From Hydrogenophaga sp. (GTDB taxonomy: Bacteria > Pseudomonadota > Gammaproteobacteria > Burkholderiales > Burkholderiaceae_C): a stretch of DNA of 64,000 bases. The first letter of the stretch is position 1. Each line of letters starts with the position of its first letter. The position numbers and the translations under genes were made by a program. The notes under the pieces are model-generated. The model saw nothing but the letters and a program-made list of their open reading frames with translations, was not told the origin of the DNA and did no database searches. Location of the stretch: the NCBI GenBank assembly GCA_016790705.1, contig JAEUOT010000011.1:37362-101361 (forward strand), given 5' to 3'. Positions 40,982 to 62,393 of the stretch are shown here, in pieces.

Positions 40982-41935
40982 ATGCTCACTCTCTCAGTAG
41001 TCGCCACAAAGGGCGGCGTCGGCAAAACCACTCTCTGTGCCAACATTGGTGGCTTTCTGGCAGACATGGGATACCGTGTCCTGCTCATTGACGCGGACAT
41101 CCAGCCCGCACTGACCCGACATTTCCAGCTCTCCCACGTCGCAGAACATGGCCTGACGACCATGATTCAGAGGGGCGTCCTGGCCGACGACTGCATCAGT
41201 CATGTGTGCCTCCCTCCCGACAACTTCCGTGGGGACACCTCGGTACTGAACGTTCGCGGAGGTTTCCTGCACCTGGTGCGCTCCGACACCCAGCGGTTTG
41301 ACGAAGAGCGCGGGGTGTTTACCTATGACAGCGCGCTGCAGGATTGGCTTTCGAGCCGCTTGGACAAGCTGGTTCGCATCCGCCTGGCCATCAAAAACGA
41401 GGCCGTCTCCTCCAAATACGATGTGGTGATCATCGACACCCAAGGTGCCGTGGGTCACCTGCAGGATGCGGCAGTCAACGCTGCCGACATGCTGCTCATT
41501 CCGGCCAAGCCGGACATCGTCTCCGCACGGGAGTTCATCAGCGGGTCGCAGCTTTTGATTGACCGCCACGAATCGGCCGGCAACATGGGCTACACGATCC
41601 CGCCGATGCGGGCCGTGATCAACCACTACCAGAACACGGTCGATTCAAAGACCATCACGCAGCACATCCGCGATCAGTTCATCCAGCTCAGCGGCAAGGT
41701 CACGGTGATGGACGCGATGATTCCAGCCATTGCGGCCTTCCCCAAGGCAGCAACTGCCCAAGTGCCCGTTCACTGGATCGATCCGGGCAAGTCGAGCGAC
41801 ATCATGCATCGATTGATGTGGGAGCTGATCGCTTCGCTGGAAGGCAAGTTCACTCCCAATCACAAGGGCGAGCTGCAGGCCCCCACCGAGCACAGCGCGC
41901 TCGACCCCGACACCGATCTGATCCAGGGAGCCTGA
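40982..41935 (+). CDS. parA: ParA-family partition ATPase
   Basis: This 317-residue protein has the deviant Walker A KGGVGKTTLC (near 10-18), a Walker A' DADIQPALTR and Walker B VVIIDTQGA. It partitions the excised circular element or stabilises it by ATP-dependent DNA binding together with ParB. GAGGA precedes the ATG. It overlaps nothing and is followed 2 bp later by parB. The C-terminus (about 290-317) is longer than core ParA. Confidence 0.92.
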   Translation: MLTLSVVATKGGVGKTTLCANIGGFLADMGYRVLLIDADIQPALTRHFQLSHVAEHGLTTMIQRGVLADDCISHVCLPPDNFRGDTSVLNVRGGFLHLVRSDTQRFDEERGVFTYDSALQDWLSSRLDKLVRIRLAIKNEAVSSKYDVVIIDTQGAVGHLQDAAVNAADMLLIPAKPDIVSAREFISGSQLLIDRHESAGNMGYTIPPMRAVINHYQNTVDSKTITQHIRDQFIQLSGKVTVMDAMIPAIAAFPKAATAQVPVHWIDPGKSSDIMHRLMWELIASLEGKFTPNHKGELQAPTEHSALDPDTDLIQGA

Positions 41936-41937
41936 GC

Positions 41938-43803
41938 ATGGCGACCAGGAAAACCCCGGAGACGCTCACGGCAGTGGAGCGAGCCGCTGCGCTGGTCCGT
42001 CAGGGCGCTCAGCTGCCGGCGCTGAGCGTGACGCCCAACAAGCCGCCGCCGACCGCTCGGGCCGATGCCAGGAACGCGGCCTACAACGCCTTGGTCAGTG
42101 CGAACTTGAACCAGGTGGCGAGGCCATCTCGCCCGGCGGTTCCCACGCCATCGCTCGATCCGAAGGCGGACCCGGACGATTCGTTCTCGATGCTGCCCAT
42201 CAACGAGCTGGAGGCCTACGGTCACAACCCCCGCACGGGCAAGAACCCACGGTACGACGACCTCAAGGCCAGCATCATTGCTGACGGCATCACCAATCCC
42301 ATCACTGTCACGCGGCCGCACCACGAGGCCAAGTTTCACCCGTATGGTGGGGGCAACACGCGCTTGGCCATCGCCAAGGAGTTGTACGAGGCGGGAGACA
42401 ACCGTTTCAGCCACCTCAAGGTGATCGTCAAGGCGTGGCCAGGTCACGCGAACGTGATTTCGGCACACCTTGCCGAAAACGAGAACCGTGGCGAAATCTC
42501 GTTCTGGGAGCGCGCCCAGGGCGTGGCCGACTTCAAGGCCCAGTTCGAGGCCGAGCACGGCTCGGTGCTCAGCACAGGGGAACTGGCGCGTGAACTCAAG
42601 TCCCACGGCATCAACTTCGGTGTCAAGGTCATCCAGAACTTTGCCTTCGCGGTCGAGCACCTCAAGCCGCTGGGCCAGTGGCTCATGGCCAAGGAGGTCA
42701 ACGAGATCATCCGACCGGGCCTGGCCGGTGCGATGACCGTGGCGACGTACTTTGGTGTGCGCAACACTGCTGACCTGTTCGAGCCCGTGTTGCTCAAGCA
42801 CCGGGACCAGCTGCTCGCAGGCATGGCAGCGGGCAGCGGACCCAAGGACACCGCCGACGCTGAAACCAAGCCGGTCGAACTCGACGCGGCCGAACTGGTG
42901 ACCGATCTGCATCAGGCCCTGGCCACAGCGGTGGGTGTCTCGCCCGAGGTGGTGCCCTTGATGATCAGCGCGGTGGAATCCAACAGCCGGATCACAGCAG
43001 ACGAGCTGCGGGCCATCCAGATCCGCAAGCCCACCGCTGCTGTGACCGACGAAGGCGCCTCAGCGCACGCTCCAGCACCTGCGCCTCAGCAGCGCGCCTT
43101 GGCCGGTATGCTCGCTGGCGTGCCGCGCGCGCCAGCGCCTGCTTCTGCACCGACGGCATCACCCGCAGCTGCTGGCCAGGGATTCACTGCCGCACCGATC
43201 CAGTCTCCTGCACCGGCTGGCGCTCCCGCACCCGTCCAGCAGCCGCCAGTGCAGCCGATCACGGCGGGAACCAAACGCAACCCGCGTCTTCCCGACCAGG
43301 TCAGAGAGGGCGATCCCACCGCCCACGTGCTCAGCCTGGTGCTGGACATCAGCGATCTGGTGGTGCTGCACGACTGCATCCTTCACATCCCAGAAATGCC
43401 GTTTGGCTACCTCATGGACCTTCCGGCGTCGTTGGAGAACGTGGGGGACAAGACCTTGCCTTATCCGCAGCTGCGCGCGGCCGCGTGGAAATTCTTGGCC
43501 TCGCTCAGCGGGCAGGTGGACCCGCAGTGGTTCTCCTTCGCCGAACCCGAGCAGTCGCGCTGGGCCAGCGCGGCCGTGCAAGGCCCCGACGTATTCCGTC
43601 AGACCTATTCCGGATCGCTGCGCGCCTTCACCTCAGAAACCGGTGACCCCGCGATGCTGCTCGCGGAGGTCTACCTCATGTTCAACCAGCCCGAGCTGGG
43701 CTACCTCACCGTGCAGTTGCTTCGCGCCATGGAGCAACTGCGTCTGGATCACCCCGAACGCTTCGTTCGGACTGTCACACCCGATCCAGACCTGCCCGAC
43801 TGA
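41938..43803 (+). CDS. parB: ParB-family partition protein, long ICE type
   Basis: This 621-residue protein has a ParB N-terminal domain around 75-230, with the nucleotide-binding-type box PYGGGNTRLAI and the following HLAENENRGEISFWERAQG. A helix-turn-helix-like part follows (TGELARELKSHGINFGVKVIQNF). A Pro/Ala linker (about 380-440) leads to a C-terminal domain (about 450-605) of its own type. The length agrees with ICE-type ParB of PFGI-1-like elements and is about twice chromosomal ParB. Confidence 0.88.
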   Translation: MATRKTPETLTAVERAAALVRQGAQLPALSVTPNKPPPTARADARNAAYNALVSANLNQVARPSRPAVPTPSLDPKADPDDSFSMLPINELEAYGHNPRTGKNPRYDDLKASIIADGITNPITVTRPHHEAKFHPYGGGNTRLAIAKELYEAGDNRFSHLKVIVKAWPGHANVISAHLAENENRGEISFWERAQGVADFKAQFEAEHGSVLSTGELARELKSHGINFGVKVIQNFAFAVEHLKPLGQWLMAKEVNEIIRPGLAGAMTVATYFGVRNTADLFEPVLLKHRDQLLAGMAAGSGPKDTADAETKPVELDAAELVTDLHQALATAVGVSPEVVPLMISAVESNSRITADELRAIQIRKPTAAVTDEGASAHAPAPAPQQRALAGMLAGVPRAPAPASAPTASPAAAGQGFTAAPIQSPAPAGAPAPVQQPPVQPITAGTKRNPRLPDQVREGDPTAHVLSLVLDISDLVVLHDCILHIPEMPFGYLMDLPASLENVGDKTLPYPQLRAAAWKFLASLSGQVDPQWFSFAEPEQSRWASAAVQGPDVFRQTYSGSLRAFTSETGDPAMLLAEVYLMFNQPELGYLTVQLLRAMEQLRLDHPERFVRTVTPDPDLPD

Positions 43804-43838: not shown

Positions 43839-44471
43839 ATGATGATCAACATCAGCGATCCGACACTGACCAAGATGCTTCTGGAGCATGTGGTCGAACA
43901 GGCCGAGGCCGGAGGCCTGGACCAATTGCTGGCCAGCGGCTTCCGGCCCGAACTGGTCGACGATCTCAGGCAGCGGCCGCTGCGCGACTTCTTCTACGCC
44001 GCGCGCAACGGGGGGCTGGCCATGTCGGTGCAAATCGACATCAAGAACCTCGAAGCCTGCCTGTGGCGCCGCGACATTGCCAAGCACACCGAGACGCTCA
44101 AGGAATACTTCATTCGCCATGGCGCGTCCATCGAGCTGCTGCGCAGTCTGTTCACGCTCTCCAAGCAAGAGCTGCAGCGCCTGCGCACCGAGCTGGATCT
44201 GAGCAAGGCCGGCCCCAACGGTCGGCCTCGCATGCCCCCAGCGTCCATCCGCGACAAGATTCACCAGAAATGGCACGACATCGGGCAATCGGCCCCGAAC
44301 AGCCATGAGCGCGACCGCCTCTCGGCGCTGCACAAGGAGTTCAGTGCGTTCTCCATCGCCGCACTGCACCGCGTCATCACGGAATTCGACGACTCGAAAT
44401 CCACCACACCGGCTCCAGTGCAGGAGCTTGGACCTCAGGTGGCGCCTGTCGAGTCCCAATACCTCTCATAA
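43839..44471 (+). CDS. DUF2857 (STY4526-type) protein
   Basis: This 210-residue helical protein resembles the STY4526/DUF2857 family found between parB and the STY4528 gene in SPI-7/PFGI-1 elements: LRDFFYAARNGGLAMSVQIDIKNLE and FFTLS-type segments. It has a likely DNA-binding helical region (SIELLRSLFTLSKQELQRLRTEL). Function is not established. AACCAACATG gives a weak ribosome site. Confidence 0.75.
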   Translation: MMINISDPTLTKMLLEHVVEQAEAGGLDQLLASGFRPELVDDLRQRPLRDFFYAARNGGLAMSVQIDIKNLEACLWRRDIAKHTETLKEYFIRHGASIELLRSLFTLSKQELQRLRTELDLSKAGPNGRPRMPPASIRDKIHQKWHDIGQSAPNSHERDRLSALHKEFSAFSIAALHRVITEFDDSKSTTPAPVQELGPQVAPVESQYLS

Positions 44472-44503: not shown

Positions 44504-45205
44504 ATGCCGCAAACCCTGAACATCCCCGTGCCCGAGTCTGCGTACCGCCAACCTCGGCTGGTGCTCAAGAACCGCCGCGCCCGGCGTCGCAGCATGGTCA
44601 AGCCTGAGCTGACCCTGGTGGTCACCCAGGCGCCTGCTCAGGAGCTTCCCCCGTTGCCCATGGCGCCCATCGCTGTACCGATGACCGCACCGGGCACGGC
44701 AGACAAGGCATCGGCATCCCTGGCGACCACCGGCTTGAGCAATCACCACCTGAGCCAGGCTGTGTTGCTCGACTGGCTGGGCAGCCAGCCAGTGGCATTC
44801 CATCGGGTCTATGTGGACGTGTGCGGCAGCGTTACCGCCGCCGTGTGGCTCTCCCTGGTCCTGTCGCTGCTGGACAGTCAGGGCAAGAAGCTGGTGGATT
44901 CACAAGGCATCTTCCGTTTTGCGCTCTCAGCGAGCCAGTGCGAAGCGCAAACCGGTCTGACCTATCGGGAACAGCGCAAAGCCCAGCGGCAGCTGATCGA
45001 GTGCCAATTGCTCGCTGACGAGGGCAAGCAATCTGGTCAGCCCGTTTCCATGTTCGCCCTGGACATGAATGCACTGACCCAGCGACTCCTGTCACACAGC
45101 GCGGGTCTGGCCGAGTTGATCCAGCAAACCTCGTTGGCGACCGAAGTGGACGTGGCCAGTCTGGAGCGCCGTGCGCAGGCCCGCGCGTCGCGCCGCAGAG
45201 CCTGA
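44504..45205 (+). CDS. ICE protein, hypothetical, helix-turn-helix-like middle
   Basis: This 233-residue protein has AGGAGC upstream. The N-terminal 85 residues are basic/Pro-Ala-rich (LVLKNRRARRRS). The middle (about 95-200) is folded, with CEAQTGLTYREQRKAQRQLIECQLL looking like a winged-helix recognition part. In related elements a gene of this size stands before the replication gene. It may be a replication or conjugation regulator; no firm family is assigned. Confidence 0.5.
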   Translation: MPQTLNIPVPESAYRQPRLVLKNRRARRRSMVKPELTLVVTQAPAQELPPLPMAPIAVPMTAPGTADKASASLATTGLSNHHLSQAVLLDWLGSQPVAFHRVYVDVCGSVTAAVWLSLVLSLLDSQGKKLVDSQGIFRFALSASQCEAQTGLTYREQRKAQRQLIECQLLADEGKQSGQPVSMFALDMNALTQRLLSHSAGLAELIQQTSLATEVDVASLERRAQARASRRRA

Positions 45206-45243: not shown

Positions 45244-47217
45244 TTGTTCCAATCCACTGCTTCACTGCGGCAGCCAACGCTTCAAGAGCTGGCGCAATCG
45301 GACACCCCGACAGAAGGAGCGCCATTCGGCGCTCCAGTCGACATGGGAGACCTGCGTGCCCACGACGTGGCGCTGGGCCATCTCAATGCGCGAGGATTCA
45401 TCCAGTTTCACCCTCTGCTGGCGCAGCGGCTGGACAGCTTCAAGGCAGCCATCTTCCTGGGACACGCCTTGTACTGGTCACGCTACCTGGCGCAGGCGCA
45501 ACCCCATCGGCGTGGCTGGTTCTTCATGAGCGCCGCCCAGTGGCGCGAGGCCACCGGCCTGAGCACGCACGAACAAACCTCGGTGCGAGGCGAGTTGAGC
45601 CGGCGCGGGCTCCTAGAAGAAGCCCTGGCCGGGCGTCCCGCCATCCTTCACTACCGGGTCAACCTGCAGGCCACCGCCAGTTTCCTGGGTCTGGAACAAC
45701 TCACCTGGGCGTCCATGGGCGAGCTGTTCCGCTCCTGCATTCGCTTCTACAAGCCGCTGTCGGACATCTGTGGTGGTGTTTCGGCTGGGCTGTACCTGTC
45801 CTACCTCCTGCAGCGACAGTCCTTCGCCCTGCGAAACCCGCTGGCCGACACCGCTGCCGTGGAACTGTTCCCCGGTGAGTTCAGCTACCGGCCCGAACAG
45901 GCACGCATCGCCCTGTGTCTTGGGATCAAGGCACAGCGCAACGCGCGCGAGAAGCTCAAGGCCGCTGGGTTCATCCGCGAGGGCCGCGCCACCAACGAGG
46001 TCGTGGCCACCCGCGTGAACCTGGCGGCGATTGCCTCGTGCCTTCAGGTGCAGGACAAGCCGGTGCGCAAGCGCTCAACGCGCAAGCAGGCTGCGCCTGC
46101 AACCCTGGCAGCGGTGCCTACTGTTCCCGCACCCAAGCAGGGCAAGCCCGCCAAGGGACCGGTGACCGGCCTGAGCCGCTCAACTCTGCCCCAGCAGCAA
46201 CTGACCCTGTTCTCTCCAGTGGGTCTGGCACGGCCGTTGCCGCTTGGCCCTCGATCTACCACGGTCGAGTCTGCGCCAGCCACCGAAGGTACAACCCCTG
46301 CGCCAACTGCACAGGCCGAACAGCTGATCCGGTCGCTGTTCGCACCAAGCCTGGTTGCGCGCGACGGCTTCCATCCTGAATCTGCGGCAGGGCCTTCGGC
46401 GAGCGACTCGGCGCAAAAGTTATCCACAGCACACATGTCGGCTTCTGCTGAATTTGCCCTTTTTGAGAACCCAATTTGCCCTTTTTTGGATGTGAATTTG
46501 CCCTTTTTTAAAAACTATAAAGAACAAGGTATTTCAAGGTATTTACAAACGACTACTACAGCGCCTGTGGATAACTCGGCAGGCGGCAAACCCGGTCGTC
46601 GTCGGGTTGAAAATTCTGAAATCCATAAATCCGAAACAGCCGTTGATCAGAAAATCGACGGAAACTGGTCGAATCGCGGCCACACAGGCGATTTGGTGCA
46701 TAACCAAGGGGTGGGTAGCACCGATGCCGAAAAATCGCCTGTAGGCCCGGAAAATCAATCTGAACAGTCCGCCGACGAAATCCGTACACAGGCCGAATCG
46801 CTGATCCTGCCCGAGCGGTTGGACCACAGTCACCACGCCGGGGTGCTGGCTACCGTCGGCCAGGCACCGCAGGACCTGCAGCAGGCCTTCCTGGACGAGC
46901 TGGCCGGCCACCTGGCCATCCCCAACAAAGTCATCCACAACCCCACCGGCTGGCTGCACGGTCTCATCCGCAAACACCAGAGCGGCTTCGTGGCGCTGGC
47001 GCTGGCGCCCCAGATTGCTGAACTGCGGCTGCGGCGCCAGCGTCATGAAGAACGGCTGGCCAATGCAGGCACAGCACAGCCCGACCTGGACGCCGCTCGC
47101 GAGGGTGAGTCTGAATCAGCCGACGTCGACCACGACTCAGAGGTTCGACGTGAACACCGCCAGCGACTTCAAGAGCTGCGGGCGGCGTTCGTGGCCAAAC
47201 GCGGGGACGCATCGTGA
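45244..47217 (+). CDS. STY4528-family ICE replication protein, contains origin-like DNA
   Basis: This 657-residue protein starts at TTG 45244 or a downstream start. The first 260 residues (ARGFIQFHPLLAQRLDSFKAAIFLGHALYWSRY, WREATGLSTHEQTSVRGELSRRGLL) contain two winged-helix-like units, as in replication initiators. From about 265 to 400 is a low-complexity Pro/Ala/Lys linker. Residues about 400-450 are encoded by the iteron/DnaA-box segment (see separate entry). The C-terminal part (about 520-600, LPERLDHSHHAGVLATVGQAPQDLQQAFLDEL) is again folded. It most likely initiates replication of the excised element. Confidence 0.75.
   Translation: MFQSTASLRQPTLQELAQSDTPTEGAPFGAPVDMGDLRAHDVALGHLNARGFIQFHPLLAQRLDSFKAAIFLGHALYWSRYLAQAQPHRRGWFFMSAAQWREATGLSTHEQTSVRGELSRRGLLEEALAGRPAILHYRVNLQATASFLGLEQLTWASMGELFRSCIRFYKPLSDICGGVSAGLYLSYLLQRQSFALRNPLADTAAVELFPGEFSYRPEQARIALCLGIKAQRNAREKLKAAGFIREGRATNEVVATRVNLAAIASCLQVQDKPVRKRSTRKQAAPATLAAVPTVPAPKQGKPAKGPVTGLSRSTLPQQQLTLFSPVGLARPLPLGPRSTTVESAPATEGTTPAPTAQAEQLIRSLFAPSLVARDGFHPESAAGPSASDSAQKLSTAHMSASAEFALFENPICPFLDVNLPFFKNYKEQGISRYLQTTTTAPVDNSAGGKPGRRRVENSEIHKSETAVDQKIDGNWSNRGHTGDLVHNQGVGSTDAEKSPVGPENQSEQSADEIRTQAESLILPERLDHSHHAGVLATVGQAPQDLQQAFLDELAGHLAIPNKVIHNPTGWLHGLIRKHQSGFVALALAPQIAELRLRRQRHEERLANAGTAQPDLDAAREGESESADVDHDSEVRREHRQRLQELRAAFVAKRGDAS
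46420..46574 (+). other. Candidate replication origin (oriV) inside the replication gene
   Basis: Perfect DnaA boxes TTATCCACA (46420-46428) and, inverted, TGTGGATAA (46566-46574) enclose three repeats AATTTGCCCTTTTT starting at 46451, 46473 and 46495, so exactly 22 bp apart. An AT-rich tract (46502-46560) and a perfect 10-bp tandem CAAGGTATTT (46525-46534 and 46535-46544) follow. Spacing of 22 bp is not a multiple of three, so each copy is read in a different frame. This argues that the DNA, not the protein, is conserved. The layout is that of iteron origins such as lambda ori inside gene O. Confidence 0.75.
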
Positions 47218-47305
47218 AGCCGAGCGTCGTTCTTTCAATCTCGGGGGTAGCGCCGTTCGGTGCTAGCTGCTCATCAAGAAACACGGTGCTCGATATCCGG
47301 TTCCA

Positions 47306-47350
47306 CCAAACGGGGGAACTTGGTAACGGGTACCAGGTTTCCCCAAACGG
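47306..47350. promoter_or_regulatory. Inverted and direct repeats upstream of 47375 gene
   Basis: GGGGAACTTGGTA (47313-47325) and TACCAGGTTTCCCC (47331-47344) form a near-perfect inverted repeat with a 5-bp centre. Direct copies of CCAAACGG stand at 47306-47313 and 47343-47350. The dyad sits 30 bp before the ATG and could be an operator or mRNA hairpin. Confidence 0.5.
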
Positions 47351-47374: not shown

Positions 47375-47770
47375 ATGACCGACAACACAGAGCTTTTTGT
47401 CAATCTGATGTACCGCCTGAAGAGCCTCAGAAACACCTCGGTGCTGATGTTTCTCTTGGAGGTTCAGGCAGATGAAAAAGAGTACGCATGCAGTGCGCTG
47501 GTTCTGTCGCACCGGTACCTGGGCAATCAAATTTCCCAGCGACAGGTTGAAAAAGCGATTCGGGACTTGGTCGAGTTCGACCTGATTGCTGTTCGTGTCC
47601 ACGCCAACACGAAGACCTATTTCAAGGTCAACGCCGAACAGGTCCGAGCGCTGCTGTCGCAACCGCTGCCCGAGCATCTGCCGGGCATGGATGACCTGCA
47701 GTACCCGTTTCTTCAAAGCTGGAAGGCCGACAGGTCCCCACCTGACGCGCCCCCAAGTCCTGACGCCTGA
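47375..47770 (+). CDS. Winged-helix-like ICE protein
   Basis: This 131-residue protein is led by AAGGTAAGG. The middle (SALVLSHRYLGNQISQRQVEKAIRDLVEFDLIAVRVHANTKTYFKVN) fits a winged helix: recognition helix followed by a beta wing. The C-terminus is Pro-rich and ends in PPSPDA. It stands between the replication gene and the PFL_4669-type gene and may bind the dyad just upstream. No known family name can be given. Confidence 0.55.
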   Translation: MTDNTELFVNLMYRLKSLRNTSVLMFLLEVQADEKEYACSALVLSHRYLGNQISQRQVEKAIRDLVEFDLIAVRVHANTKTYFKVNAEQVRALLSQPLPEHLPGMDDLQYPFLQSWKADRSPPDAPPSPDA

Positions 47771-47811: not shown

Positions 47812-48984
47812 ATGGCCACGACCACCACATCCCCCAGCACTGGCAAGAAGGCCGGCAAAGGTGCAGCTGCTGCCACCGCCCCGCTGGCCAGCAGCACCGT
47901 TTTCATTCCTGCTGCCAAGAGCATGATGTTCGAGACCGAACCGAACTCTCCGTTTTCCGATGGCTACAGCATCGCAAGGGAGCGCGAAGTGTTGGCCGAC
48001 TTCCTCGCTGACCCCAGCCGCCAGCATGATGAAAACGACCCTCTGTACGACCGCCATATCGAGCTGATCGACCGGGAAGACCAGCTGGACCGGATGAAGG
48101 CGCAGTACCAGTCCTCCAAAGGTGCCGACCCGCTGGTCGAGCACAAGGAGGCGGTGGCCATGAACTTCCTGGGTTCGCTGGTCGATGACGGTGTGGACCA
48201 GATGGCGCTGCACACCAAGGAAGCGTTCAGGATGTTCATGGGGCGCTCGCGTGACCCGGAGAAGAAACTCGAACCGATCATTGGTGGCAAGCGCGTTGCT
48301 GCGGCATTGCGCGCCTTGTGGGTGCTGACCGGCAACGACAACCCCTACGCGGACTGGGGACTACTGCGGCACGAACAGACCATCAAGGAGGTGGGCAAGC
48401 TGCTGGCGAAGCACATTGCCGACGCACAGGCGGCGCTGGACCAGCAGAAGGCGCGCGGGCTGACGTTCTCCGTGCTTCAGTCCTCCAGTCCTCAGGTCCT
48501 GAACCTGGGCTTCAAATCTCCCTACGGCTATGCGGTGGCCCAGTTGGTCACCGACTTCGATTTCTTCGTCCGGTTGCAGAAAACCCTGGAGCGCAAGAAC
48601 CTGCGTTCTGATGCGCAGGTGCGGCAAATCATCACCGAGACCACGCGGGTCATTCGTCGCGTGTTCAATGAGACCGCCCGATTCGACCGCTGGCTCATGC
48701 GCGAGGAAATGAAGGGCCTGTGTCGGGCCGACTTCGTGCCCGACGGTGATCCGGAAGGCGCCAAGCGGGTTCAGTTCGCCGCCGAGGTGTTCGGACCGTG
48801 CCCTGCCGAGGTCTATTCAGGGAAGCTGCAGCCGCGCCATTCGCGCCGCCGCATCCAGATCTCGCAAGCCGAACGCAAGCTGCTGCAGGTGGTCAGCGAC
48901 GAGATGCTGCGTCGCGAGCGCGAGGCCGACGCGGGTGCGCTGGATGAAGCAGCCGCGCAAGAGATTGCCGCAAAGCTGGTCTGA
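47812..48984 (+). CDS. PFL_4669-type integrating conjugative element protein
   Basis: This 390-residue protein has a low-complexity start (1-35). A region with AAALRALWVLTGNDNPYADWGLLRHEQTIKEVGKLLA follows, which matches the PFL_4669 (TIGR03761-like) family, a marker of this ICE class. The later part (FDFFVRLQKTLERKNLRSDAQVRQIITETTRVIRRVF) is helical. The function of the family is unknown; neighbours are replication/maintenance genes. Confidence 0.8.
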   Translation: MATTTTSPSTGKKAGKGAAAATAPLASSTVFIPAAKSMMFETEPNSPFSDGYSIAREREVLADFLADPSRQHDENDPLYDRHIELIDREDQLDRMKAQYQSSKGADPLVEHKEAVAMNFLGSLVDDGVDQMALHTKEAFRMFMGRSRDPEKKLEPIIGGKRVAAALRALWVLTGNDNPYADWGLLRHEQTIKEVGKLLAKHIADAQAALDQQKARGLTFSVLQSSSPQVLNLGFKSPYGYAVAQLVTDFDFFVRLQKTLERKNLRSDAQVRQIITETTRVIRRVFNETARFDRWLMREEMKGLCRADFVPDGDPEGAKRVQFAAEVFGPCPAEVYSGKLQPRHSRRRIQISQAERKLLQVVSDEMLRREREADAGALDEAAAQEIAAKLV

Positions 48985-58355: not shown

Positions 58356-59963
58356 GGGGGTGCGGCGTAAATCTTGGACTGGTTTTAGTTGATTAAGCCC
58401 AGACTTTCGCGGTACTCGATGGGGCTGAGGGAGCCCAGCGATATCTTGATCCGTTTTTCGTTGTACCAGAGGATGTACTCGTGCACCGCACGGATGAACA
58501 CCTCGATGGTGGTCGACTTCCAATCACGCGGGTAGAACATCTCATTCTTCAGGCGCCCAAAGAAGCCTTCGCAGGCCGCGTTGTCCGGTGAGCACCCCTT
58601 GCGCGACATCGACCGCGTCAGCTTCGCACTGTGCATCCGATCAAGCCAGCCCGGCCACCGGTAATGAGCACCACGGTCGGAGTGAATGATCGGCTTGCTG
58701 TCGCACGATTGCACCGTGTCAATGGCTGCATCGAGCATCGTGTTCACCAACTCAGAGTCCGGTCGGGTGCCAAGCGTCCAGCTCACCACCATGCCATCGA
58801 AGCAGTCGATCACAGGCGAGAGGTAAACCTTTCCCGCCGGTATCTGGAACTCTGTAATGTCGGTGAGCCACTTCTCATTCGGTGCCGCCGCCTGGAAGTC
58901 ACGATTGAGCAGGTTGTCTGGAGCAGGGCTGATCTCTCCGAGGTAGGACCCGTATCGACGCTTCTTGCGCGCGGGAACAATCAAGCCCTCCTGCTTCATC
59001 AGACGCTGCACGACTTTTTCAGACAGGTACAAGCGGCGTCTGCCCAGCGCCGCCCGCATGCGCCGGTAGCCATAGCTGCGGTGGTTGCTCTGAAACACAT
59101 CGGCAGCTGCAACGCGGGCGTCAGCATATTTGTCAGGCCTTCGCTGGCGGGCGCAGTGGTAGAAGTAGGAGCTACGAGCCAGGCCAAGTTCGCCAAGTAG
59201 CTCTGCGAGCGAGTAGATGGGCTTGAGGGCGTCAACCAGCAGAGTCTTCTCCCGATTGCTCAGGAGCTGAGGGTTGACGCCCAGGCCTTTTTTTAGCAAT
59301 TCATTGGCCTTCTTCAAGATGTCATGTTCGAGCTGAAGGCGGTGAATACTCTGTTGAAGCGACTCGACCTGACGCTGCAGTTCGGCAACATCAGGCACTG
59401 GCGGTGAATTGTTTTGACGTTTCATGGATGCGAGTACCTCGCGGCCGAGCAACTGGTTCTTCCAGTTGTACAGCGTAGGCCGACACACCGCCAGCTTCTG
59501 GGCAATTTCTTGTGCGCTGGTCTTTCGGGTGCAAAGCTCAATCACCGCTGCGCTCTTTAGCGCGTCGGGGTGCAGGGTGTTCGGTGCCCGGCCCACCATT
59601 CGGTGGCGAACTGTGGGGTGCAGCTCGTCAATCCACTCGGCCAGTAGTTCCCGACCGGGATAGCCCAATGCCCGCATGGTCGAGGCAATGCACCGATCGT
59701 GATCAAGGTAGTGCTTCACCGCCGCATGCTTCTGCTGATCGGAATACTTCTGTCCCGATCGCGAATACCCGACTCGCAGATCCTGGCTCCGCTCGTACTC
59801 CCGGTACCAGCCAATGAGGGAGTTCTTGGTCGGGTAGCCCAGTTGGCGGATGGTGGCCCCAAGGCGCTTACCAAGCTTGATGTAGAGCTTGACGGCTCGG
59901 ATTCGGTCTTCGTAGGAATACATGAACTACCTCCAGGTAGTCCAAGTTTTTAGCCGCACCCCC
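58356..59963 (-). mobile_element. IS3-family insertion sequence nested in the IS21 left end
   Basis: The ends GGGGGTGCGGC (58356-58366) and GCCGCACCCCC (59953-59963) are inverted repeats, and further inside TTGGACT/AGTCCAA also match. The 3-bp CGG is found at 58353-58355 and 59964-59966 as a target duplication. The G/C runs make the exact edge slightly ambiguous. Confidence 0.85.
58385..59923 (-). CDS. IS3-family transposase, single fused frame
   Basis: This 512-residue protein has two HTH units at the start (YEDRIRAVKLYIKLGKRLGATIRQLG; KHAAVKHYLDHDRCIASTMRALG), a third (TSAQEIAQKLAVCRPTLYNW), a leucine-zipper-like stretch (LQRQVESLQQSIHRLQLEHDILKK) and a DDE integrase core. The core acidic residues are in WLTDITEF, VIDCFDGMVVSW and ACEGFFGRLKNE. 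In most IS3 elements OrfA and OrfB are joined by -1 frameshifting; here they form one open frame. Confidence 0.93.
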   Translation of the reverse strand: MYSYEDRIRAVKLYIKLGKRLGATIRQLGYPTKNSLIGWYREYERSQDLRVGYSRSGQKYSDQQKHAAVKHYLDHDRCIASTMRALGYPGRELLAEWIDELHPTVRHRMVGRAPNTLHPDALKSAAVIELCTRKTSAQEIAQKLAVCRPTLYNWKNQLLGREVLASMKRQNNSPPVPDVAELQRQVESLQQSIHRLQLEHDILKKANELLKKGLGVNPQLLSNREKTLLVDALKPIYSLAELLGELGLARSSYFYHCARQRRPDKYADARVAAADVFQSNHRSYGYRRMRAALGRRRLYLSEKVVQRLMKQEGLIVPARKKRRYGSYLGEISPAPDNLLNRDFQAAAPNEKWLTDITEFQIPAGKVYLSPVIDCFDGMVVSWTLGTRPDSELVNTMLDAAIDTVQSCDSKPIIHSDRGAHYRWPGWLDRMHSAKLTRSMSRKGCSPDNAACEGFFGRLKNEMFYPRDWKSTTIEVFIRAVHEYILWYNEKRIKISLGSLSPIEYRESLGLIN

Positions 59964-60009
59964 CGGTTTTCCATCCAATATTGACCCCACCTGTTGGGGT
60001 GTAGCCGGG

Positions 60010-60843
60010 CTACGCGTCTGTGGATAAGTCTACCGTTGGTGCATCGGTTCCTCCTTTTTCAGTCGTCTCGTTCTGGGCCGCCCGGGACTTCTTTCTCGGG
60101 CCTGTCTTTGCTGCAGCGCTGGAGTGTTTGAACCGCCAGCTTTCATTGCCTGTCTCCACGATGTGGCAGTGGTGGGTCAGCCGGTCCAGCAGTGCCGTCG
60201 TCATCTTCGCGTCGCCGAACACCTGGCTCCATTCACCGAAGCTCAGGTTGGTCGTGATCAGCATGCTGGTGCGCTCGTAGAGCTTGGAGATCAGGTGGAA
60301 CAGCAAGGCACCACCGGCCTGGCTGAACGGCAGGTAGCCCAGTTCATCCAGGATCACCAGGTCCATGTAAACCAGCCGGTGGGCAAGCTGTCCGGCCTTG
60401 CCTTGGCTCTTCTCCAGCTCCAACGCGTTGACCAGCTCCACGGTCGAGAAGAACCGCACCCGTTTGCCGTGCTTTTGAATGGCCTCGATGCCGATGGCCG
60501 TGGCCAAGTGGGTCTTGCCCGTGCCCGGTCCACCGATGAGAACCACGTTGTGGGCCGCGTCAATGAACTGACCACCGTGCAGCGTGCGCACCAGTGCTTC
60601 GTCCACACCGGCCTGGCCGAATTCAAAGCCCGCCAGATCGCGGTGCGCGGGGAAGCGTGCCGCGCCCATCTGGTACGCCATGGAGCGCACCGTGCGCTCG
60701 GCCTGTTCGGCGCGCAGCAACTGACCCAGGAACGCCTCGGGACTGAACTCGGTGTGCCGCGCCTGCGCGGCCACCTCGGGGTAGTTGGCGGCCATGCCGT
60801 GCAGCTTCAAGGCCTTGAGCGCTGTGACGATGGCCTGGCTCAT
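60010..60843 (-). CDS. istB: IS21 helper ATPase IstB
   Basis: This 277-residue DnaC-like AAA+ ATPase has Walker [18 protein letters not shown] and Walker [15 protein letters not shown]. The basic tail ([12 protein letters not shown]) is usual in the family. It helps IstA choose and bring in target DNA. Its start overlaps the istA stop by 4 bp. Confidence 0.95.
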
Positions 60844-62393
60844 GGCTGCGCTCCTGGAGCATCGTCGCCATCCACCGAGCGCAGCCGGTCGTAACGCTGC
60901 ACATTGGCCAGCGGCTGCACCGTCAGCGTCAAGGGCGTCTTGACCTCCTGGGCATCGCCCGTCTGGCCACCAGCCTTCAAACGTGCCAGCACGTTGAGCA
61001 CATGCTCGCCACTGGGCTTGCCGCTCTCCAGTGCCAGCTCGGCCGCCACCAGCACCGGCTCCAGACCATGCACCGGCACGGCCGCCAGCACCTGCGCCAT
61101 CACCCGGTCACCGCCCTCGTGGCGCAGCAGGATGGACTGCAGCTTCTTCAATGGTTCGGGCAGGGTCTCGAAGGGCGCGCCGTTGCGCAATGCGCCGGGC
61201 TTGCGTTCGATCAGGCTCACGTAGTGGCGCCAGTCGTAGAAGGTCAGGCTGCGCTCGAAGCTGCGCGCGTGGCTGGCGATGCGGATGTTCTCGGCCACCA
61301 CGTCCAGGCGGTCCGGGTACAGGCGCAGGCTGACCACCTCGTGGACGTGCTCGGTCGGTACGCTGTAGCGGTTGCGCTGCAGGTGCACCAGCGCCGTGCT
61401 GGAGACCCGGGCGAGCACCTCCACGTAACCATCAAACGGCTTGGGGTTGGGCATGAGGCGCAGTTGTTCGTCTTGCAGCACGTCGGCCACCTTCAGCGTG
61501 GGCCATTCGGGGTGGTTGAGTTCGGCCCACGCGGCGCGGCACTCCTGGGCCAGCCAGTCGTTGAGCGCTTCCATGCTGGGCCAGCGCTGTTTGAGCGCCT
61601 TGTGCCAGATGCTGCTGCGCCGGTCGCGCACGTTCTTCTCCACGATGCCCTTCTCCCAGCCGCTGGCGACGTTGCAGAACTCGGGCTCGAACAGGTAGTG
61701 GCCCGTCATGGCTTCAAAGCGCGCGTTGATCACACGCTTCTTGCCCGCGCCGACCTTGTCCACGGCGGTCTTCATGTTGTCGTAAATACCGCGCTGGGGC
61801 ACGCCGCCGAAGGCGGCAAACGCCCGGGCATGGGCGTCAAACAGCATCTCGTGACTCTGGGTCGGATAGGCCACCAGCCAGAAGGCGCGGCTGCCACACA
61901 GCTTGGTGTGCGCCACCTCCAGGCGCCGGCGCAGCCCGCCCACCCAGGCATATTCGGTGCTCCAGTCGAACTGGAACGCGTCGCCCAGCGCAAACTTCAA
62001 AGGAACGAAGGCGGCCTTGTCGACCTTGCCCGACTGATCCTCTCGCCAGCGCCGGGCAAAGGCGGCCACCCGGCCGTAGCCGCCGGTGTACCCCTGCTCG
62101 GTCAGGGCTTCGTACAGGGCCTTGATGGTGCGGCGATCGCGTTTGCCGCGATGCTGATCGGCCTTGAGCCAGGTTGCCAGCATCTCGGTGAAACCGTCGA
62201 GCTTGCTCACCACCACCCGCTGAGGGTACTTGGGCTGGACCATCTCGCCCTTGCGCAGCCACACCTTGATGGTGTTTCTGGCCAGGCCCGTGCGCCGCTC
62301 GATTTCTTTGATTGGAAGGCCGTCGCGCAGGTGCATCCTGCGGATCTTTGCCAGTGTTCCCACGTTGATCACTCCTTGAACCCTCCTGCTCAA
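60840..62393 (-). CDS. istA: IS21 transposase IstA
   Basis: This 517-residue protein has an N-terminal HTH ([29 protein letters not shown]) and a DDE core ([62 protein letters not shown]). A C-terminal beta-barrel region follows ([26 protein letters not shown]). Both genes look intact. The element may however be immobile because its left end repeats are 1.6 kb apart. Confidence 0.95.

Follow-up and report, generated by a model that had tools for sequence, protein, structure and literature searches.

How the widespread ICEs of the SPI-7/ICEclc class replicate after excision is an unsettled matter. PFGI-1 is said to encode no Rep protein, and the passages on its repeats do not place them inside a gene (PMC2647930); ICEclc has been linked to its relaxase; and for pKLC102, with as many as 30 copies per chromosome in one strain, the relevant passage only postulates an oriV (PMC7685784). 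An earlier note on a 64 000-nucleotide stretch of Hydrogenophaga sp. DNA (hereafter the window) proposed that a complete iteron-type origin lies hidden in the coding region of a replication gene. On the DNA elements observed, their register, their conservation at the DNA level, their place between two protein regions and the syntenic module around them, we consider it likely that positions 46420–46574 are the core of a vegetative origin inside its own initiator gene, in the manner of lambda O, in an ICE of the SPI-7/ICEclc/pKLC102 class. A candidate initiator together with a candidate in-gene origin of ~155 bp makes the question of ICE replication directly testable.

Repeats and DnaA boxes within the rep gene

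Every origin-like element of 46420–46574 is contained in the forward-strand open reading frame at 45244–47217 (rep), in the following order:

46420–46428, forward strand: DnaA box 1, TTATCCACA, exact match
46449–46470, forward strand: iteron 1, 22-bp unit
46471–46492, forward strand: iteron 2, 22-bp unit
46493–46514, forward strand: iteron 3, 22-bp unit
46515–46519, forward strand: CTATA motif immediately 3' of iteron 3; candidate site of unwinding within the AT-rich tract
46525–46544, forward strand: 10-bp tandem repeat CAAGGTATTT (two copies), in the AT-rich tract
46566–46574, reverse strand: DnaA box 2, TTATCCACA, exact match

The DnaA boxes, the three repeats at 22-bp steps, the AT-rich tract and the 10-bp tandem repeat were all found where the earlier note had put them, and the observation of an array with boxes inside the ORF is confirmed. 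The sequence AATTTGCCCTTTTT occurs in three identical copies starting at 46451, 46473 and 46495, that is at exact 22-bp steps, and these occupy all three reading frames of rep; within the window, this 14-mer has no further site at zero or one mismatch. Both DnaA boxes, inverted with respect to each other, fall within a 12-bp perfect inverted repeat. The GC content drops to 0.393 at 46400–46549, compared to 0.647–0.687 in the 150-bp windows of 45800–46399. In rep taken alone, a three-copy chain of 22/23-bp steps arose in 9 of 3000 synonymous shuffles, and a cruder, spacing-blind repeat score was not significant (10, against a shuffle mean of 6.9 and maximum of 12).

Perfect DnaA boxes number three in the window against 0.07 expected, and ten in the whole 3.75-Mb genome assembly. 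The third one of the window, at 60019–60027, sits in istB, the helper gene of IS21; the istA/istB pair and an IS3 transposase lie at 58388–62393, downstream of an integrase.

The Rep protein and its gene module

The regions of Rep and the genes that surround it, with both of the intervening dyads, are as follows:

40982–41935, forward strand: ParA-like ATPase, first gene of the module
41818–43803, forward strand: ICE_PFGI_1_parB-like protein (136.7 bits, just below the cut-off of 143.75), presumably BisD-like from its position
43839–44471, forward strand: DUF2857 protein (85.5 bits, cut-off 36.8), which we take to be InrR/BisC-like
44504–45205, forward strand: 233-aa protein matching the O-like winged helix (phrog_9773, E = 1.5e-4)
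45244–47217, forward strand: Rep, 657-aa O-like initiator candidate (PHROG 9773; length counted from the first possible start, TTG)
45373–46047, forward strand: N-terminal region of Rep (aa 44–268), common to the relatives, with the first winged helix
46801–47037, forward strand: C-terminal domain of Rep (aa 520–598), helical, present in 61 of 68 relatives
47248–47265 and 47318–47338, no strand: two dyads 3' of rep, before the 131-aa protein gene; perhaps the module's second repeat element
47375–47770, forward strand: 131-aa protein, next module gene after rep
47812–48984, forward strand: PFL_4669 family ICE protein (166.7 bits, cut-off 110.7)

Rep resembles an O-type initiator: residues 54–144 match phrog_9773 ('replication initiation O-like') with E = 1.9e-14, and this match recurs in 25 of 36 aligned relatives. 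The label 'STY4528-type', by contrast, proved too close. STY4528_fam (NF040582) is the best NCBIfam match of Rep, confined to residues 449–581, and its score of 26.9 bits, where the curated cut-off is 130, marks Rep as a distant relative only. No Pfam family was found in Rep at E ≤ 1, Phage_rep_O and the RP-C domains included. Identity as RepC was considered and rejected, since Rep lacks RP-C and RP-C_C appears in 3 of 36 relatives (E ≤ 0.1, best E 0.0016).

In the AF2 model of aa 36–275, blocks around aa 66–165 reach pLDDT values of 62–88, with the remainder poor, and the C-terminal domain (aa 521–580) is modelled at 78–86. The linker between them (aa 281–510) has a pLDDT of ~25 and is predicted to be disordered, in a model built from five sequences with a mean pLDDT of 37. 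The domain limits themselves come from an iterated search of a small set of relatives, for which E-values are uncalibrated. A sequence search of the PDB with Rep gave no match. Foldseek likewise returned nothing at E ≤ 0.001 when the Rep models were compared with PDB entries and viral models; many MarR-type winged helices stand among the top PDB rows of the N-terminal region, at E 0.015 and above. Viral contigs scanned with the family alignment and with two phage-like relatives also returned no match. Because the linker is long and predicted to be disordered, it could host an origin, as in lambda O; a disordered linker, here judged from low pLDDT in a poor model, would allow the protein sequence to yield to the needs of the DNA. 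The O-like winged-helix match occurs both in the 233-aa protein and in Rep, as if the initiator winged helix had been duplicated.

The window's rep is placed between DUF2857 and PFL_4669, as are the STY4528 genes of ICE replication modules, and the order DUF2857–rep–PFL_4669 was seen by annotation in six named records (the pUM505 stretch stops after rep). PFL_4669, a PFGI-type ParB (just under its cut-off) and DUF2857 occur together in the window's module, the combination that marks the SPI-7/ICEclc/PFGI-1 class. When 45 neighbourhoods were searched with the window's neighbour proteins, 37 had at least one ParB-like or PFL_4669-like neighbour, a frequent order being ParA, ParB, DUF2857, small winged-helix protein, Rep, 131-aa protein, PFL_4669, DUF3158 and SSB. 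The other eight had no other module genes and are phage-like or other loci. One genome (G683, contig C1, relative L111) has two ParA/ParB/Rep modules close together in opposite orientation.

The 22/23-bp register among relatives

The close relatives of the window's rep lie in Hydrogenophaga (L001–L003) and in a beta-proteobacterial MAG (L004). Relatives were found in 23 of 399 genomes of the host family and, by profile search of the host order, in 37 of 399; across the phylum, NF040582 matched in 22 of 398 genomes and exceeded its cut-off in 10. Our counts rest on 68 relatives' ORFs (100 kb), of which 57 non-redundant ORFs were left once near-duplicates (identity of 75% or more across 40% of the shorter sequence) had been dropped. 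ORFs in another frame, fragments and partial homologues were excluded by hand (L026, L048, L052, L053, L056, L065, L076 and L088), and duplicates or second gene pieces were also set aside (L005, L007, L029–L036, L046, L080, L086, L089 and L090). The controls were 509 uncurated ORFs (535 kb), picked from 45 neighbourhoods by taking the longest open stretches that do not overlap, with a minimum of 150 aa.

Direct 12-mer pairs in the 68 ORFs were enriched over controls by factors of 10.3, 12.0, 11.0 and 10.7 at 22, 23, 44 and 46 bp, respectively, compared to 0.2–4.6 at all remaining distances between 12 and 70 bp; among the repeat pairs of control ORFs, multiples of three dominate. Looking for homologues without repeats as a check of the proposal, we found three-copy 22/23-bp chains in 24 of 57 relatives and in 0 of 509 control ORFs, a check that the proposal survived. 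Pairs at these steps occur in 40 of the 57 relatives (43 of 509 controls), leaving 17 without any. Over 100 rounds of synonymous shuffling of the 57 genes, chains averaged 0.10 (maximum 2) and pairs 9.75. The pairs are also concentrated in one part of the gene, with 474 of 501 falling between the N- and C-terminal regions (counted in the 27 genes that have a pair as well as both regions), in a linker that makes up 27% of the ORF.

Among genes in an ICE context, 16 of 36 have a chain, and 27 of 36 have a chain or a score above all 30 shuffles; the nine that pass neither test include some with arrays that are degenerate by eye (L004 and L006). For genes outside an ICE context, the corresponding numbers are 6 of 8 and 7 of 8 (chain, or above all shuffles). 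A TGCC(C/G) core is found in many arrays, namely those of the window, L003, L004, L006, L009, L010, L013, L015, L017 and L044. Phage-like or other loci lacking the ICE module (L113, L115, L118, L103, L106 and L114) encode smaller O-like proteins, and these genes also carry in-gene 22/23-bp arrays.

The claim that selection acts on the DNA itself is upheld by repeat copies lying in different frames, by the family-wide 22/23-bp register and by codon conservation. Across the origin core (codons 401–436), identical residues keep their codon in 29/31 cases (94%) in L002, 17/20 (85%) in L003 and 19/21 (90%) in L004, compared to 215/390 (55%), 150/316 (47%) and 134/295 (45%) in the rest of the gene, the relatives used having 53–68% protein identity. 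The CAAGGTATTT tandem is kept in L001, L002 and L004, and nearly so in L003. The lowest-GC 120-bp window adjoins the array in 33 of 36 genes, and CTATA occurs between −10 and +45 relative to the array end for 9 of the 35 arrays. Its density is 4.68/kb there; elsewhere in these ORFs it is 0.12/kb, and in controls 0.19/kb.

The flanking pair of DnaA boxes, in which the earlier note saw a part of the origin, is kept in close relatives but is not general. L001 retains both perfect boxes, L003 has TTGTCCACA at both box positions with the 146-bp spacing of the window, and L002 and L004 have one near-match box each. In the relatives as a whole, perfect boxes number 10, in 9 of 57 genes (shuffle mean 1.13, maximum 3; three in the 535 kb of controls), and enrichment is weak when one mismatch is allowed (24 boxes versus 13.9 in shuffles, sd 3.4, maximum 25).

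In STY4528 proper, members of NF040582 bear palindromes in place of direct repeats. The palindrome of PFGI-1, which has 24 letters as published and is named 23-bp in the paper, is presented by Mavrodi et al. 2009 as part of the putative PFGI-1 oriV in the passage concerned (PMC2647930). L069 (NF040582, 345 bits) has four copies with 1–3 mismatches, in frames 1, 0, 0 and 2. Inside STY4528 ORFs, the palindrome occurs four times in pKLC102, pUM505, P. veronii and ICEhin1056 (the last with a variant centre), three times in S. zhaodongensis and twice in pEB102. These counts exceed shuffles for pKLC102, ICEhin1056, P. veronii and S. zhaodongensis; the two copies of pEB102 are not above its own shuffles (maximum 2). 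Of 5426 E. coli genomes, 145 have relatives, in every case on the chromosome. Five of the 12 listed were taken for counting and have 3, 3, 1, 3 and 2 palindromes (with up to 8 mismatches), each above all 100 shuffles.

The module also occurs on plasmids. One carrier is p1_SCLZS63, a circular Comamonas aquatica plasmid of 143 kb that also has a T4SS, MobH and one tyrosine recombinase; its rep (L006, 1–1791) is unannotated and has three 23-bp iterons. The PLSDB gene table of this plasmid, which is incomplete, names no Rep and gives no replicon type, and a search for one other Rep family, PF01051, found it absent. The B. glumae plasmid p79s3p has the module with 23-bp repeats and, in addition, a second, separate parAB–'replication protein O' locus.

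Proposed mechanism, rival explanations and known in-gene origins

From these sequence comparisons we infer that Rep binds the iterons and that replication starts from the array. The winged helix of Rep would bind the 22-bp iterons, all three on the same face of the helix, assisted in the window's clade by DnaA at the two flanking boxes. Melting would occur in the AT-rich tract, which contains CTATA and the CAAGGTATTT tandem. The helical C-domain of Rep may then recruit the host DnaB helicase, so that the excised circle would be copied in theta mode. For the wider family we lean, with less confidence than for the locus itself, towards a common scheme: SPI-7, ICEclc, PAPI and ICEHin ICEs, kindred plasmids and prophages would have one O-type initiator lineage, with the origin in the initiator gene and a constant helical register of 22/23 bp, formed by direct repeats in the elements of beta-proteobacteria and by palindromes spaced 44, 45 or 54 bp apart in STY4528 proper; they would be theta replicons by design and not only relaxase-copied passengers. 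The comparisons suggest that phages and ICEs have one initiator lineage in common; if true, this lineage would tie ICEs to lambda-like phages and plasmids.

The array could be a control site and not an origin, at which Rep, ParB or the DUF2857–ParB pair binds for operon repression or activation, partition or incompatibility. Plasmid iterons often serve as copy-number control sites, the rep operon encodes a regulator and a ParB, and dyads and tandem repeats also lie in the gap 3' of rep. We nevertheless regard a control site as unlikely, given an array deep in the coding region, an AT-rich tract adjoining it in 33 of 36 genes, CTATA 3' of it in 9 of 35, and the DnaA boxes of the window's clade. 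Chance, codon bias or repeats in the protein would be a more trivial source of the array, and L015 and L016 do have in-frame 33-bp repeats that are mirrored in the peptide. Steps of 22 and 23 bp shift the frame, however, and neither the shuffles nor the 509 controls have such arrays; this explanation is already refuted at the family level, and we give it almost no credence. For the window's gene alone, 9 of 3000 shuffles do give a chain.

Replication may instead depend on the relaxase, with TraI acting at oriT in a rolling-circle mode and the iterons surviving as a relic, or as a minor aid, of phage or plasmid ancestry. ICEclc replication is reported to need TraI and oriT1, the copy number falling without either, although residual mutant cells with four foci may, in the passage describing them, indicate further replication mechanisms (PMC6561031). 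The Hydrogenophaga genome itself encodes the TraI relaxase and TraC-type ATPase of the ICE class, both over cut-off, on contig C66 (the window is on contig C21). A relic would decay, but the core codons are still constrained between relatives at 53–68% protein identity, and we think a purely relaxase-driven element quite improbable. Relaxase-dependent replication of ICEclc does count against an origin, yet it need not exclude one, as a second mode would be compatible with it. Also counting against the proposal are the 17 relatives without any pair, the nine ICE-context genes that pass neither test, the scarcity of DnaA boxes outside the clade, the second replication locus of p79s3p and the tyrosine recombinase of p1_SCLZS63; the in-gene palindromes and high copy number of pKLC102 and the iterons of p1_SCLZS63 speak in its favour.

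The reading we prefer, an origin within the initiator gene, is of an already known kind, represented by lambda O, repC, pAD1, pSK41 and RA3. What is new is that it is assigned to SPI-7/ICEclc-type ICEs, that a candidate initiator is named and that a 22/23-bp register is shared. Lambda O with oriLambda shares the winged-helix initiator, in-gene iterons in several frames and an adjoining AT-rich stretch, and in the window's rep, too, iterons and AT tract lie in the gene between N- and C-terminal parts. Taken as a yardstick, lambda O gave steps of 20, 24 and 23, frames 0, 2, 2 and 1, and a GC content of 0.32 in the 60 bp after the iterons versus 0.48 for the whole of O. Lambda O differs in having 299 aa (657 in Rep) and a separate helicase loader P alongside, whereas no P-like gene was seen beside rep, which has a parAB/DUF2857/PFL_4669 module, and DnaA boxes in its clade. 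The putative oriVs of PFGI-1, pKLC102 and the Haemophilus ICEs share the ICE class and the place just before PFL_4669, but are made of palindromes, while direct 22-bp repeats are the form in the window's clade.

Among plasmids, repABC has the same parA–parB–rep order and an AT-rich origin inside rep, although repC of p42d is described, in the section concerned, as having neither iterons nor DnaA boxes (PMC3155836). According to the same section, pAD1, pSK1, pSK41 and others have iterons within the initiator coding region (PMC3155836); these are Gram-positive plasmids, and Rep has no Pfam match at E ≤ 1. An excerpt on IncU RA3 puts oriV at the 3' end of repB. The earlier note knew of no such origin in this family, which holds in part. 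Repeat-based putative oriVs have been proposed both for PFGI-1 (PMC2647930) and, by Juhas et al. 2007, for Haemophilus ICEs, as an iteron-like oriV in the replication module (PMC2258188), but the passages in question do not place oriV in the initiator gene. In the passages covered, our literature search found no in-gene origin described for these ICEs, and Klockgether 2004 on pKLC102 may say more. Frame-shifting 22/23-bp arrays between two conserved regions offer a signature for origins missed by intergenic searches.

Repeats are also found 3' of the gene. Tandem repeats follow the STY4528 ORF in pKLC102, pUM505 and P. veronii (57-bp) and in ICEhin1056 (36-bp), and p1_SCLZS63 has a 44-bp tandem repeat 3' of rep, at the place where the window has its dyads. 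Similar dyads occur in L001, L002 and L004, and those at 47248–47338 are possibly a second origin or a partition element.
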